Assembly: GCF_000376265.1 (NCBI RefSeq)
Contig: NZ_AQWU01000068.1
Coordinates: forward strand, 156 to 64,155
Length of the DNA stretch: 64,000 bases
Reading direction: 5' to 3'
Source: Thermus igniterrae ATCC 700962
GTDB taxonomy: Bacteria; Deinococcota; Deinococci; Deinococcales; Thermaceae
In this document: positions 15,105 through 58,756 of the stretch, one piece after another
Layout of the letters: each line of letters starts with the position of its first letter
How positions within the stretch are numbered: the first letter of the stretch is position 1
Notes under the pieces: generated by a model
What the model saw: only the letters and a program-made list of their open reading frames with translations
Databases searched by the model: none
What the model was told of the DNA's origin: nothing
Translations under genes and position numbers: made by a program

Positions 15105-15733
15105 TCCGCCAGGGCCAGGCCCAGGCCACCCAGGACCACCCCGGCCAGGACCCAGGGGTCCGCCCCGGGGTTCAGGGCCAGGAAGGCCACCGTGTAGCCC
15201 AGGGTGAGGAGGGCGAGGACCCTGAGGGGCAGGGCCAAAGGGTTTCGCTTCCCCTCCGGCTTAGGGCTGGGAGGGCTGGGGGCCTCCGGCTCCGGGGCCA
15301 GCTCCACCGAGGCCCGCTTGGGGGGCGCCTCCTCCTCCCACACCGGGGGCTTGGGGGGCTCGGGCGGAGGCGGGGGGGGTTCGGGGGGCCTGGCCTCCCG
15401 GGTGGGGCCTGGCCCCTGGAGGGGGGAAGGGGTGGCCGTGGCCTTGCGGGCCCGGGCTACGTGGGGCTTCAAACCCTCCAGAAAGGCCTTCAGCTCCTCC
15501 ACCGGGAAGGCCTTCAGGGGGACCACCAGGGAGCTTTCCTCCCCCTGGACCAGAAGGGTACCCGCCTCGCCCCGGCCCACCCGGCGGATGCGGGCCAGTT
15601 CCAGACGCTGGACACCCCCTTCGTCCACCAGGACCAGGTGGGTCTCGGTGATGGCCAGGAAGCCGCCAGGGCCTTCCAGCTGCGCCAGGGCCTTTTCGCC
15701 CAGGCGGGAAAAGGCCGCTTCATACTTGCCCAT
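15077..15733 (-). CDS. Unknown protein: PH-like N-terminus, proline-rich linker, two C-terminal membrane helices
   Basis: 218 residues, no family recognised. Residues 1-95 look like a small beta-rich PH-like domain (FLAITETHLVLVDEGG, LELARIRRVGRG). Residues 100-165 are Pro/Glu-rich, and residues 170-215 hold two hydrophobic helices. Translation starts at ATG 15733, exactly six bases after a TATACT -10 element, so the mRNA should be leaderless. It is the first gene of a comEA-comEC operon with a 28-bp overlap, which suggests, but does not prove, a role in DNA uptake. Confidence 0.8.
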   Translation of the reverse strand: MGKYEAAFSRLGEKALAQLEGPGGFLAITETHLVLVDEGGVQRLELARIRRVGRGEAGTLLVQGEESSLVVPLKAFPVEELKAFLEGLKPHVARARKATATPSPLQGPGPTREARPPEPPPPPPEPPKPPVWEEEAPPKRASVELAPEPEAPSPPSPKPEGKRNPLALPLRVLALLTLGYTVAFLALNPGADPWVLAGVVLGGLGLALAEWSLATSWR

Positions 15734-15739
15734 GTTCCC

Positions 15740-15747
15740 AGTATACT
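15740..15747. promoter_or_regulatory. Shared bidirectional -10 element AGTATACT
   Basis: The palindrome AGTATACT contains TATACT on both strands (15742-15747 forward, 15745-15740 reverse). Exactly six bases separate each copy from a start codon: GTG 15754 forward and ATG 15733 reverse. A forward -35-like TTCATA lies at 15719-15724 with a 17-base spacer. Confidence 0.7.
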
Positions 15748-15753
15748 TGGCCC

Positions 15754-16383
15754 GTGCCCCTGCGCTTAGGCCACCGCGGTGCGCCCCACCTGGCCCGGGA
15801 GAATACTCTGGAATCCTTTAGAAAAGCTTTGGGGGCGGGCCTGGATGGGTTTGAGCTGGATGTCCACCTCACCCGGGACGGCGTCCTGGTGGTGCACCAC
15901 GACTTCGTCCTGGAGGGGGAGCCCATCGCCCGCCTCTCCCGGCGGGAGCTTCCCGCCTATGTGCCCACCCTGGAGGAGGTTCTTCGGGCCTTCCCCCAGG
16001 CCCGGATCAACGTGGAGTTAAAAAGCCTCCCCCCGGAGACCGATGGGCGGGAGGAGGCCTTGGCCCGGCTCCTGGCCCGCTACCCCTCGGGGCGCCTTTG
16101 GGTGAGCTCCTTTGACCCCCTGGCCCTGGTGCGCCTGAGGCGCCTGGGGGTGGGCCCCCTGGGCCTCCTCTACGACAGGCCCGAGGCCCTGGAGCTCGCC
16201 CCCTGCCTGGGGGTGGCCTGGGTCCACCCCGAGGCCTCCCTCCTCACCGAGGAGGGCGTGCGGGCCCTAAAGGCGCGCTACCGCGTCCTGGCCTGGACGG
16301 TGAATCGCCGTGAGGAGGCGGAGGCCCTGGCCGCCTGGGGGGTGGACGCCTTGGTGAGCGATTTTCCAGAGGTGCTCGTATAA
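15754..16383 (+). CDS. Glycerophosphodiester phosphodiesterase
   Basis: Hydrolyses glycerophosphodiesters to glycerol-3-phosphate and an alcohol. 209 residues from a leaderless GTG. GDPD motifs are LGHRGAPHLARENTLESF near the N-terminus (catalytic HRG), GFELDVHLTRDGVLVVHHDF (metal ligands and second His) and RINVELKS. It is a single-domain cytoplasmic type with no signal peptide. Its TAA stop forms part of the TATAAT that precedes ppa. Confidence 0.93.
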   Translation: MPLRLGHRGAPHLARENTLESFRKALGAGLDGFELDVHLTRDGVLVVHHDFVLEGEPIARLSRRELPAYVPTLEEVLRAFPQARINVELKSLPPETDGREEALARLLARYPSGRLWVSSFDPLALVRLRRLGVGPLGLLYDRPEALELAPCLGVAWVHPEASLLTEEGVRALKARYRVLAWTVNRREEAEALAAWGVDALVSDFPEVLV

Positions 16384-23845: not shown

Positions 23846-24895
23846 CTACCGCAGGGGGGCAAGCAGAAGGGCCAGGAGGGCCAGGGCCATCCCCAGGCCC
23901 ACCGCCAGGGGGAAGCTGTGGAGGAAGAGGGGGTAGAGTAGCCCCGCCAAGGTCCCCCCCAGGTAGAAGCTGGCCACGTAGGTGCCGCTCACCCCCGCCC
24001 CCCGCCGCCCGGCCGCCCCCGAGGCCAAGCTCTGGGCGGTGAAAAGGGCCGCCATCTGCAGGACGAAGCCCACCACCAAAAGGGGAGGCGGGAGGAGCAG
24101 TAGCCCAAGCCCCAGGAGGACCAGCATGAAGGCCAGGCGGAAGCTGGCCACCGCCCCCAGCCGCCTGGCCAGGAGTCCGGAGAGGGCGCTTCCCGGAATG
24201 CCGAAGAGGTAGGCCAGGTAGACCAGCCCTACCTCTGCTGGGCGGAAGCCCAGCTCCAGGAGGCGGTAGGGGAGGAGGTTGGCCAGGAAGAGGTTGAGGA
24301 AGAGGAGGATCCCCCCCACCAGGTAGAGGGGAAAGGCGGTGAGGTCGTAGCGGGGCTGGCCCAGGGCGGGAAGCCCCCTGGGCCCCCGGAGGACCAAAAG
24401 GCCCAGCAGGAGGGCGGGTAGGGAGAGGAGGCAAAGGGCCCCCCGCACCCCCACCCCCTCGGCCAGAAGCCCTGCCAGCACCCGGCCAAGCCCCCCCCCG
24501 AGGACGTTTCCCGCCATGTAGACCCCCGCCATCTCCAGGGCGCGCCGGGGAAAGAGGAGGGGCACCAGGGCGATGGCCAGGGCGGGGACCAAGGCGGCCC
24601 CCACCCCCTGGAGGAGGCGGGCAAGCGTCCAGAGGAGGAGGCTTGGGCTCAAAGCCCCCAGCACCCCGCCCACCCCCACCAGGAGGAGGCCCCCGCCCAA
24701 GAGGACCCCTGCTGGCAGGGGAAGCCTGGGCACCAGGGGGGAGAGGAGGACCAAAAGGAGGAGGGGCAGGCCCATGCCCGGGCCGGCGGCCCCCGGGGGT
24801 GCGCGGAAGAGGCCTTCCAGGAGGGGGAGGAGGGGGACCACCGCGTAGAGGGCGCTATACAGGGCCACCCCGGAGAGGACCACCGCCCAGCGCAT
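23846..24895 (-). CDS. Major facilitator superfamily transporter
   Basis: 349 residues, about 11-12 hydrophobic helices with the Gly/Leu-rich composition of MFS carriers. The loop [14 protein letters not shown] and [20 protein letters not shown] match MFS helices 3-4. Substrate unknown. ATG 24895 follows a minus-strand TAGGAT (24908-24903) by seven bases, an element shared with divergent priA. Confidence 0.75.
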
Positions 24896-24901
24896 CCCCC
24901 T

Positions 24902-24908
24902 TATCCTA
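24902..24908. promoter_or_regulatory. Shared bidirectional -10 element TATCCTA
   Basis: TATCCT reads forward (24902-24907), ending eight bases before the priA ATG. TAGGAT reads on the minus strand (24908-24903), ending seven bases before the MFS ATG. The 20-bp gap between the genes has no room for anything else. Confidence 0.6.
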
Positions 24909-24915
24909 GGCCTGT

Positions 24916-27033
24916 ATGCCCGTGCTCCAGGTGGCCCTCCCCCTGCCCCTGCCCCCCATGAGCTACCTGCCCCCCCTGGGCCAGGAGGGGGAGGAGGCCC
25001 TGGGGCGGCGGGTGGCCGTGCCCTGGCGGGGGGAGGTGCGGGTGGGGGTGGTGGTGGGGGAAGGGGAGCGGCCGGGCCCCAGCCTGCGCCACGCCATCGC
25101 CTACCTGGACCGGAAGCCCTACCTCCGCCCCCAGGAAATCCTTTTCCTGGAGGAGGCTGCCCGCTACCTCTTCGCCCCCCTGGGCCAGGTGCTGGCCGAC
25201 TTTCTCCCCCCCTTTCCCCAGCTGCGCCACCGGGTGCGCCTCTACCCAGGGGCGGACCCCAAGGTGCTCCCCCGGGGGCTGGAGGGCCTCACCCAGTGGC
25301 AGGAGGCCCGGGGCTTTGACCCCAAGCTCCTGGACCACCTGCGGGAGGCGGGGGTGCTGGAGGAGGAGGTGGCCTTCAAGGAGGCCAGGCGGGTGCTCCG
25401 GCCCCTCAAGGAGGCCCACCCGGACCCCACCCTGGACCGGGTGCTGAGGGTGCTCTGGGAGCTGGGCCAGGCGGAGAGCCTGGCCGCGTTGGCCCGGGCC
25501 GCCGGGGTGGGGGTGGCCCGGGTCAAGCGCCTCCTCCAGGAGGGCTACATCGGCTACGGGCCGCGCCAGGAGCCCCCCCGCCCGGGGAGGCCCCTGGAGC
25601 CCCTCTTCCTGCCCGAGCGCCCCGAGCGGCTGAACGGAGGGAGGCTTTGGGAGAGGCTCCGCCTCCTCAAGGGGTTGGTGGCGGGGGGAAGCCACCTGGT
25701 CCTCTTTCCCGAGGTAAGCCTGCTGGAACGCTTTCTGGAGCACTTCCCTGAGGCCAGGCCCTACCATGGGGGGCTTTCCCCGGAGGCCCGGGAGGCCCTT
25801 TTCCGGGACCCCGGGGGGCTGGTATTCGCCACTTACGGGGGGCTTCTCCTTCCCTTCACCCCTGAGGGCCTGGTGGTGGTGGAGGAGGGGAGCGAAAGCT
25901 ACAAGCTTCCCTCGGGGAGCCGGGCCTTCGTGCCTCCCCTGGCGGAGCTCCGGGCCCGGCTCCTCGGCGTCCCCCTTACCTACCTCTCCCTGGTGCCCGC
26001 GGTAGAGGTGCTGGAGCGGCCCGGCCTCACCTTTCCCGTGCCCCAACCCCGGGTCCTCCTCCTGGACCTCCGGCGGGAGCGGGGCTTCCCCCTTACGGGG
26101 CGGGCCCTGGCCCTTCTCGGGCAGGTGGAGGCCAAGGGGCGCCAGGCCGTGGTCCTTTCCGCCAGGCGGGGGTATAGCGCCCTCCTCCTCTGCGCCGACT
26201 GCGGGTACAAGCCCAGCTGCCCCGAGTGCGCCCTGCCCCTCCGCTACCACAAGGAGGGCCGGGGCGTCCTCCTCTGCCACCAGTGCGGCCACCAGGAGGC
26301 CCCGCCCCTCCTCTGCCCGCAGTGCGCCTCCCCCCTCCTGGAGCCCCGGGGGCCGGGGCTGGAGTGGCTTGGGGAGGAGCTTCGCCGCCGGCTTAGCCTG
26401 CCCGTCTACCGCTACGCCAAAGATGGCAAGGACGACCTCACCCCCCTCCTCCAGGGCCAGCCCGGGGTGGTGGTGGGGACCACGGCCCTCCTCCGGGGCC
26501 CCGTCCTGCCCGAGCTGGCCCTGGTCCTCGTGCCCTATGCCGACGGCTTCCTCTTTGAGGCCGACTTCCGGGCTGCCGAGCGCTACCACCGCCTGCTTTG
26601 GGCCCTCACGGAGCTCCGGCCGGGGCGCAGGCCCCTTCTGGCCCTGCAGACCTACACCCCCGAACACCCCGTCCACCAGGCCCTCCTGGAAGGGAGCGTG
26701 GAACGCTTCCTCTGGGCGGAAAAGGCCCTGCGGGAGGCCCTGGACTACCCCCCCAAGGTGCGCATGGTGAAGCTGGAGGTGGCCCACCGCAAGGAGGAGC
26801 AGGCCCTGGAGACAGCCCATGCCCTCCTCGAGGCCCTCAGGGGGGTGGCCCGGGAAGGGGAGGTGCTGGGGCCCGCCCCCGCCCCCGTGCCCCGGGTCAA
26901 GGGGGTGTACGTGTACCACCTCCTCCTCCGGGGGAGCACGGAGCGCCTGGCCCAGCTCCTTTCCCTTTTGGACCGGCGGCGCTTCAAGCTGGATCCCGAT
27001 CCCCACCGCTTCGTGGGGCTTCTGGAGGACTGA
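24916..27033 (+). CDS. priA: Primosomal protein PriA, helicase-inactive form
   Basis: 705 residues in PriA layout: an N-terminal 3'-end-binding domain, a helicase-like core, and a zinc module with four CxxC pairs (CADCGYKPSCPEC and CHQCG...CPQC, residues about 427-475). The helicase motifs are broken. I find no GxTGSGKT Walker A; the DEEH box reads VEEGSESYK (near residue 320); the GTQ motif reads GTTALLRG; and the final AGRAGR-type motif reads LTELRPGR. The family normally restarts stalled forks with ATP-driven unwinding. A helicase-dead PriA has been described for Deinococcus radiodurans, so a structural role in replication restart is likely. Confidence 0.88.
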   Translation: MPVLQVALPLPLPPMSYLPPLGQEGEEALGRRVAVPWRGEVRVGVVVGEGERPGPSLRHAIAYLDRKPYLRPQEILFLEEAARYLFAPLGQVLADFLPPFPQLRHRVRLYPGADPKVLPRGLEGLTQWQEARGFDPKLLDHLREAGVLEEEVAFKEARRVLRPLKEAHPDPTLDRVLRVLWELGQAESLAALARAAGVGVARVKRLLQEGYIGYGPRQEPPRPGRPLEPLFLPERPERLNGGRLWERLRLLKGLVAGGSHLVLFPEVSLLERFLEHFPEARPYHGGLSPEAREALFRDPGGLVFATYGGLLLPFTPEGLVVVEEGSESYKLPSGSRAFVPPLAELRARLLGVPLTYLSLVPAVEVLERPGLTFPVPQPRVLLLDLRRERGFPLTGRALALLGQVEAKGRQAVVLSARRGYSALLLCADCGYKPSCPECALPLRYHKEGRGVLLCHQCGHQEAPPLLCPQCASPLLEPRGPGLEWLGEELRRRLSLPVYRYAKDGKDDLTPLLQGQPGVVVGTTALLRGPVLPELALVLVPYADGFLFEADFRAAERYHRLLWALTELRPGRRPLLALQTYTPEHPVHQALLEGSVERFLWAEKALREALDYPPKVRMVKLEVAHRKEEQALETAHALLEALRGVAREGEVLGPAPAPVPRVKGVYVYHLLLRGSTERLAQLLSLLDRRRFKLDPDPHRFVGLLED

Positions 27034-57164: not shown

Positions 57165-57818
57165 TTAGGGACCTATGTCCTCAGGGGGGGCCTCGAGGTT
57201 CATGGCCTTCACCACCCCTTCCTCCCCGTAGAAGTCCAGCACGGTGAGCTTGGCGTAGTCCTGCTCCAGCCTGAGCCCCTCCTCGGGGGGCAGGGGCAGG
57301 GCCAGGCTCAGGGCGGCGCGGTTCAGGGTGCAGTTGCCCACCACGAGGAGGGCCTGCCCCCGGTGCCGGGCCAGAAGCCCTCTCAGGGCCTCCCGCCCCC
57401 GTTCCCAGGCCGCCCGCACGCTCTCCCCCCCTGGGGGGGCGAAGCCCGCCTCGTCCGCCAGCCAGGCCCTCACCGCCTGGGGGTAGCGGGCCTGGACCTC
57501 GGGGAAGGGGAGGCCCTCCCAATGGCCCCAGCTCCGCTCCCTGAGCTCGGGGAGGAGGGTGTGGGGCACCCCCAGGGCCTCTCCCAGAAGGCGGGCCGCC
57601 TCGGCCTCCGCCCGGCTGTCTGCGGCGTACACCCAGGCCACGGGGTAGCGCCGCAACAGCCCCACCAGGGCCAGGAGGGCCCGCCTCCCCTCCTCGGCCA
57701 GGGGCAGGCCTGGGTGGCTGTAGAGCACGTGCTCCGGGTTCGCCACCGGCCCCGCCCGGGTGAGGAGGAGGGTGGTCTTGGGGTGGGGCCCGCGGAGGAA
57801 GTGGGCAAGGAGGCCCAT
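57165..57818 (-). CDS. Histidine-phosphatase-superfamily protein lacking catalytic histidines
   Basis: 217 residues. It matches phosphoglycerate-mutase-like phosphatases over most of its length (YAADSRAEAEAARLLGEAL, LRERSWGHWEGLPFPEV, PPGGESVRAAWERGREALRGL). The nucleophile motif RHG reads TRAG (residues 20-23), and the second SHG-type motif reads GNC (161-163). Both active-site histidines are therefore missing, and it is probably not a phosphatase. Leaderless: TATTCT on the minus strand (57830-57825), six bases, ATG 57818. Confidence 0.82.
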   Translation of the reverse strand: MGLLAHFLRGPHPKTTLLLTRAGPVANPEHVLYSHPGLPLAEEGRRALLALVGLLRRYPVAWVYAADSRAEAEAARLLGEALGVPHTLLPELRERSWGHWEGLPFPEVQARYPQAVRAWLADEAGFAPPGGESVRAAWERGREALRGLLARHRGQALLVVGNCTLNRAALSLALPLPPEEGLRLEQDYAKLTVLDFYGEEGVVKAMNLEAPPEDIGP

Positions 57819-57823
57819 GGCCC

Positions 57824-57830
57824 TAGAATA
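57824..57830. promoter_or_regulatory. Shared bidirectional -10 element TAGAATA
   Basis: TAGAAT forward (57824-57829), then six bases, then GTG 57836. TATTCT reverse (57830-57825), then six bases, then ATG 57818. The whole intergenic gap is 17 bp, so both leaderless genes must use this one A/T-rich element. Confidence 0.75.
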
Positions 57831-57835
57831 GGGGG

Positions 57836-58756
57836 GTGGAAAGGTGGGTGATCGTGAACCCGGCAGCGGGCCGGGGCAAGGTGGGGCGGCTTTCGGGGGC
57901 CATCCTGAAGGCGGCCCGGGAAGGGGGGGCAAAGGCCTTCCTCACCGAGGGGCCGGGCCACGCCACGGAGCTGGCCTACCAGGCCCCTGAGGGGGCCCGG
58001 GTGGTGGCCGTGGGGGGGGACGGCACGGTGCACGAGGTGCTCCGGGGCCTGGCGGGCACGGAGAAGGTCCTGGGGGTGGTGCCCATCGGGAGCGGCAACG
58101 ACTTCGCCCGCATGCTGGGCCTGCGGGGGCTTGCCTGGCGGGAGGCCTTAGCCCTGGCCCTCTCCGCCCCCGAGGAGGCCATAGACCTGGGCTGGGTAAA
58201 CGGCGAGCCCTTCGGGGCTTCCTTAGGCATCGGCTTCGACGCCCTGGTGGCCAAGAAGGCCTTCTCCGCCCCGCCTTTTTTGCGGGGCATGCCCCGCTAC
58301 CTCTACGCCCTCTTCGGGGTGCTCAAGGACCTGCGCCTGCCCGAGGGGCGGGTCCTGGTGGACGGGGCGGAGGTGCACCGGGGCCCCCTTCTCCTTCTGG
58401 CGGCCATGAACGGGCCCATGTACGGCGGGGGCATCCCCATCGCCCCCATGGCCGACCCCCGGGACGGCCTCCTCTCCCTGGTCCTGGCCCGCTCCTTCAC
58501 CCGGCCCGGGGTGGTCCTCATCCTGCCCCGCCTCCTCCTGGGCCGGCACCTCTCCCACCCCCAGGTGGTGGCCTATGCCGGGCGGAGGGTGGAGGTGGCC
58601 TTTTCCACTCCTGTGCCTGCCCACGCGGACGGTGAGCTCCTGCCCGAGGCCAGGGTGTACCAGGCCGAGGTCCGCCCCCTGGGGCTACGGGTGGTGGGGG
58701 GTAGGGTGGGGGTGAGGGGCGGGGAGGCTGTGCCCCGCCCTGTGGGGGTCTCTTGA
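57836..58756 (+). CDS. Diacylglycerol kinase/YegS-family lipid kinase
   Basis: 306 residues. WVIVNPAAGRGKVGRL, VVAVGGDGTVHEVLRGLAG (GGDGT catalytic loop) and GVVPIGSGNDFARMLGLRG are the defining DAGK catalytic motifs. The C-terminal domain contains MYGGGIPIAPMADPRDGLLSLVL. It phosphorylates a lipid such as diacylglycerol. GTG 57836 is fixed by the promoter and by the VNPAAG N-terminus. Confidence 0.92.
   Translation: MERWVIVNPAAGRGKVGRLSGAILKAAREGGAKAFLTEGPGHATELAYQAPEGARVVAVGGDGTVHEVLRGLAGTEKVLGVVPIGSGNDFARMLGLRGLAWREALALALSAPEEAIDLGWVNGEPFGASLGIGFDALVAKKAFSAPPFLRGMPRYLYALFGVLKDLRLPEGRVLVDGAEVHRGPLLLLAAMNGPMYGGGIPIAPMADPRDGLLSLVLARSFTRPGVVLILPRLLLGRHLSHPQVVAYAGRRVEVAFSTPVPAHADGELLPEARVYQAEVRPLGLRVVGGRVGVRGGEAVPRPVGVS

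Follow-up and report, generated by a model that had tools for sequence, protein, structure and literature searches.

The stretch of DNA analyzed here, i.e., 64,000 nucleotides of Thermus igniterrae ATCC 700962 (hereafter, the window), carries a gene for a histidine phosphatase superfamily protein and a divergent gene for a YegS/diacylglycerol-kinase-like protein (Table 1). Read directly from one start codon to the other (57816-57838), the sequence is CAT-GGCCC-TAGAATA-GGGGG-GTG, and the distance from the kinase GTG to the phosphatase ATG is 18 bp. An earlier note on this DNA had read the heptamer as TAGAAT forward and TATTCT in reverse, each six bases from a start codon, which the sequence confirms; the two hexamers overlap, sharing five base pairs on opposite strands. 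The same note had taken both flanking open reading frames to be real genes, and this was borne out by matches well over the Pfam cut-offs, at E=4e-41 for the phosphatase-superfamily protein and at E about 1e-26 to 1e-27 for the two families matched by the kinase-like protein. The phosphatase-family protein (window 57165-57818) has RAG where its family usually has RHG (LLLTRAGPVAN), and its orthologue in one other genome (G008, C1:1761067-1761701) is split into two pieces; for these reasons, it may be something other than a standard catalytic histidine phosphatase.

Table 1. Features of the divergent gene pair (window coordinates)
Feature	Position	Strand	Remarks
Histidine phosphatase superfamily gene	57165..57818	-	217 aa, ATG start, presumed leaderless; Pfam His_Phos_1
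CAT (minus-strand ATG 57818)	57816-57818	-	GGCCC flank next to CAT
Intergenic gap, 17 bp	57819..57835		Whole putative promoter region outside both coding sequences
Putative shared -10 core TAGAATA	57824..57830	both	T1, A2, T6 and A7 carry both hexamers
Candidate forward -10 TAGAAT	57824..57829	+	Ends 6 nt before GTG 57836; at the genome-wide TANNNT spacing peak
Candidate reverse -10 TATTCT	57825..57830 (read 57830-57825)	-	Ends 6 nt before ATG 57818; same spacing rule
GTG start codon of kinase gene	57836-57838	+	Preceded by GGGGG
YegS/diacylglycerol-kinase-like gene	57836..58756	+	306 aa, GTG start, presumed leaderless; Pfam DAGK_cat and YegS_C

Alignment of the phosphatase orthologues begins at residue 1, and the position of the kinase start codon is conserved. 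GTG 57836 is also the first possible start in the kinase frame: 12 nt before it, the TAG within the -10 (57824-57826) acts as an in-frame stop and closes the frame. By inspection, neither gene has a Shine-Dalgarno sequence at working distance: GGGGG touches the kinase GTG, leaving, with the in-frame TAG, no room for a Shine-Dalgarno leader, and the phosphatase flank (GGGCC) varies among relatives. Alternatively, the kinase might start at GTG 57848, the codon picked by a gene call blind to promoter motifs, with a Shine-Dalgarno-like AGGGGGG about 11 nt upstream and a leadered mRNA beginning inside the phosphatase gene. However, this codon is GTC in most Thermus orthologues, whereas GTG 57836 is conserved, and in nearly all relatives the GGGGG flank begins with C instead, so we regard this alternative as very unlikely.

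Genome-wide spacing and divergent gene pairs

To place the site in its genomic context, we used 841 genes called by codon usage alone (i.e., motif-blind) in 811 kb of T. igniterrae (the window and 40 further stretches). Near the 5' ends of these predicted genes, TANNNT was found 119 times at 6 nt and 84 times at 7 nt before the start codon, compared to roughly 10-25 times per position at most other distances; the base directly after the -10 is A in about 18% of the sites with 6-nt spacing. The window site has TANNNT at 6 nt on both sides, i.e., within the 6-7 nt spacing of leaderless genes.

Of the 92 divergent pairs whose gap is <400 bp, 31 show a leaderless candidate for each gene. At gaps of 13-26 bp, a -10 for both genes was present in 7 of 11 pairs based on the motif-blind starts (the window pair joins this class only after its kinase start is corrected to 57836), whereas shuffling the gap letters gave a mean of 0.05 such pairs and a maximum of 3 in 20,000 trials. 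Divergent gaps are roughly even in frequency from about 13 bp up, and the 18-bp class is no more frequent than other short gaps. What stands out is not the number of short gaps but that overlapping -10s occupy the shortest of them. One might suppose that two start codons met an A/T-rich heptamer by chance, given that the heptamer fixes four bases only, but this is contradicted by the genome-wide spacing peak, the shuffle test, and the conservation among 28 genomes described below, and is thus extremely improbable; judged by these sequence comparisons, the window arrangement is not a product of chance.

The site had been described in the earlier note as the third shared promoter of its kind, which is too low a count: about 8 such pairs occur in the 811 kb sampled and, by extrapolation, perhaps some 20 per genome. 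Two other dyads lie in the window itself. At 15731-15756, a shared leaderless dyad (CATGTTCCCAGTATACTTGGCCCGTG), in which TATACT can be read on each strand and the two copies overlap, lies between a plus-strand gene resembling, by eye, glycerophosphodiester phosphodiesterase and an uncharacterized minus-strand gene; at 24893-24918, a shared dyad (CATCCCCCTTATCCTAGGCCTGTATG) with spacings of 7 and 8 separates an MFS-like transporter gene from a PriA-like gene (by eye). Elsewhere in T. igniterrae (C32:4430-4455), a 21-bp dyad (CACCCCCAAAGTATAGTGAGGCCATG) lies between crcB-like and ribH-like genes (by eye); this pair is found genus-wide, with closely similar dyads in most of 27 Thermus genomes.

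In the 27 Thermus genomes, the symmetric pattern CAY-N5-TANNNTA-N5-RTG had 158 matches (table sum) vs. 4 in the backwards control, while in the family's other genera it was hardly above control. We rejected the 158 vs. 4 excess as a count of bidirectional promoters since, among the seven T. igniterrae matches, five are flanked by a substantial gene on just one side. The two with substantial genes on both sides are the window site and an SDH_beta gene facing a 501-aa open reading frame of unknown family; the other five are apparently one-sided leaderless promoters where CAY occurs by chance, which means that reverse hexamers arise by chance beside such promoters. Since the genus-wide excess probably comes mostly from one-sided leaderless promoters, we base the bidirectional claim on the gene-based tests instead. 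The N6 version of the pattern (7 nt to the start codon both ways) had three matches, all between two long open frames, and five of the six flanking frames match Pfam families. Two one-sided leaderless promoters of T. igniterrae (C44:5158 and C71:76433) have the string GTACGCTAGGGCCATG in common; strings like it recur in many Thermus genomes, and it is possibly a common regulatory site.

The -35 of each direction had been placed inside the opposite gene, which holds as geometry only, as there is no good -35-like hexamer there. A classical sigma-A -35 (TTGACA about 17 bp upstream) is absent in both directions, the best hexamers matching 4/6 positions forward and 3/6 in reverse, both at 16 bp. 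Similarly, the aligned leaderless promoters of T. igniterrae have no clear -35 as a class, and only a faint preference for T at 23-24 bases before the -10. With no -35 on either side, promoter strength at the window site could be low in one direction.

Conservation of the shared core

Gathering phosphatase orthologues across the order yielded 28 genomes of Thermus and outlying genera with the core between both genes (in one outlying genome, the contig breaks off before the kinase can be matched, but the kinase start region is still readable). The core is intact in all 28, as TAGAATA in 23, TAAAATA in four, and TACAATA in one, counts that ignore kinship among relatives that are not independent. 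Hence, T1, A2, A4, A5, T6, and A7 are invariant and the third position is G, A, or C. The flanking bases vary, start codons alternate between ATG and GTG, and the kinase of the outlying genera is only 58-64% identical. The start codons are separated by 18 bp in 20 of the genomes and by 19-20 bp in the others.

These data bear on whether the core might serve one direction only, the other hexamer being a by-product of an A/T-rich core and its gene being leadered, with a promoter inside the neighboring gene. In favor of this alternative, only T1 and A7 tell the two directions apart, and the one-sided T. igniterrae matches described above show the same geometry next to a single substantial gene. 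On the other hand, both window start codons are at exactly the preferred 6 nt, the reverse spacing stays at 6-7 nt in 28/28 genomes despite flanks that vary in sequence and length, and short divergent gaps, taken together, contain a -10 for each gene much more often than chance predicts. Hence, we consider single-direction use unlikely and favor use of the core in both directions.

Eight Meiothermus loci lack the phosphatase gene in the vicinity of the kinase; their kinase -10 reads TA[G/C]AAT with C as the next base, i.e., the dyad is absent, and the kinase promoter is further from the start codon than in the pair-bearing genomes; this contrast represents one or a few evolutionary events and is confounded by phylogeny. 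The retention of A7 could also have other reasons; for instance, TAGGATA occurs at hisA with no divergent start to match it, and A is the next base after the -10 in about 18% of the sites with 6-nt spacing, as noted above.

Prophage insertion within -10 elements

Two species, Thermus sp. 2.9 (G024) and one other Thermus (G021), have the pair broken apart precisely at the core (TAGA / AGAATA). The insert in the former (C36:81700-90050) is 8 kb long and encodes a Zot-family ATPase and an IS110-type transposase, the latter about 59% identical to that of the filamentous Thermus phages phiOH16, Zuza8, and Zuza27; the split was demonstrably caused by a filamentous prophage. In the latter, the two halves are on two contigs, and an 85%-identical transposase adjoins the phosphatase gene. 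Filamentous Thermus proviruses of this type are already known (PMC11437467). A related prophage in genome G008 (C1:831500-840100) sits within the TAGGAT -10 of hisA, the empty site being GGTAGGATAGCCCCATG in relatives. After insertion, in the shared-pair and hisA cases alike, the host gene retains a -10 with A replacing the first T. That is, phiOH16-like filamentous prophages with an IS110-type transposase are found inside TAG[A/G]AT -10s at the pair in two species and at hisA in a third, and -10 boxes may be an integration target of this phage family. The prophage-split pair also offers a natural comparison for the intact shared promoter.

Discussion

The sequence geometry, gene identity, genome-wide statistics, and 28-genome conservation established here favor the central proposal of the earlier note, i.e., one -10 for two predicted leaderless mRNAs, and we consider it quite probable that TAGAATA is a bidirectional, leaderless, and mutually exclusive sigma-A promoter. 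From these data we infer the actual start sites, two-way transcription, leaderless translation, and competition as follows. TAGAATA would act as a single sigma-A -10 element readable on either strand, with RNA polymerase binding it in either orientation, one complex at a time. A rightward polymerase would open TAGAAT and begin transcription on or beside the kinase GTG, a leftward one would open TATTCT and begin on or beside the phosphatase ATG, and both mRNAs would be without a leader. Since both complexes would need the same base pairs, they would exclude each other and the two genes would compete for polymerase.

Bidirectional promoters in which one symmetric -10 serves both strands have reportedly been described by Warman, Grainger, and colleagues. 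In E. coli, the commonest start-site separation of such promoters is 18 bp (PMC12825309), and the window site resembles them in its single -10 readable on both strands, in its 18-bp spacing (here between start codons, the presumed start sites), and in the expected competition of two polymerase orientations. Unlike the window site, the E. coli cases in that study are not described as leaderless; here, both start sites would fall on start codons, each belonging to a real gene, and the entire intergenic region measures 17 bp. Leaderless genes of Deinococcus-Thermus, in turn, have TANNNT 6-7 nt before the start codon and do not require a -35 (PMC12340547; PMC3160421), and this -10-adjacent pattern is backed by reporter tests (PMC12340547). 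The genome-wide spacing peak of T. igniterrae agrees with this published pattern, and the window site is similar, with TANNNT 6 nt upstream, no -35, and presumed leaderless mRNAs. The words "bidirectional" and "divergent" are absent from both papers, which do not treat one -10 serving two open reading frames, and our search of the literature available to us turned up no account of two leaderless genes that depend on one -10. Symmetric -10s and leaderless -10-adjacent genes are each known; their combination appears to be new.

The layout is the most compact possible for divergent genes, with a heptamer and ten spacer bases providing all the non-coding needs of two genes. It also represents a natural substrate for testing the competition of polymerase orientations, as there is no -35, no leader, and no intergenic room for a regulator site. 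Taken together, and with somewhat better than even confidence, we propose that shared leaderless -10s form a recurrent, conserved class in Thermus that combines the smallest possible divergent gap with regulator-free, either-or transcription. If this model is true, either-or transcription of two genes would be forced without any regulator.
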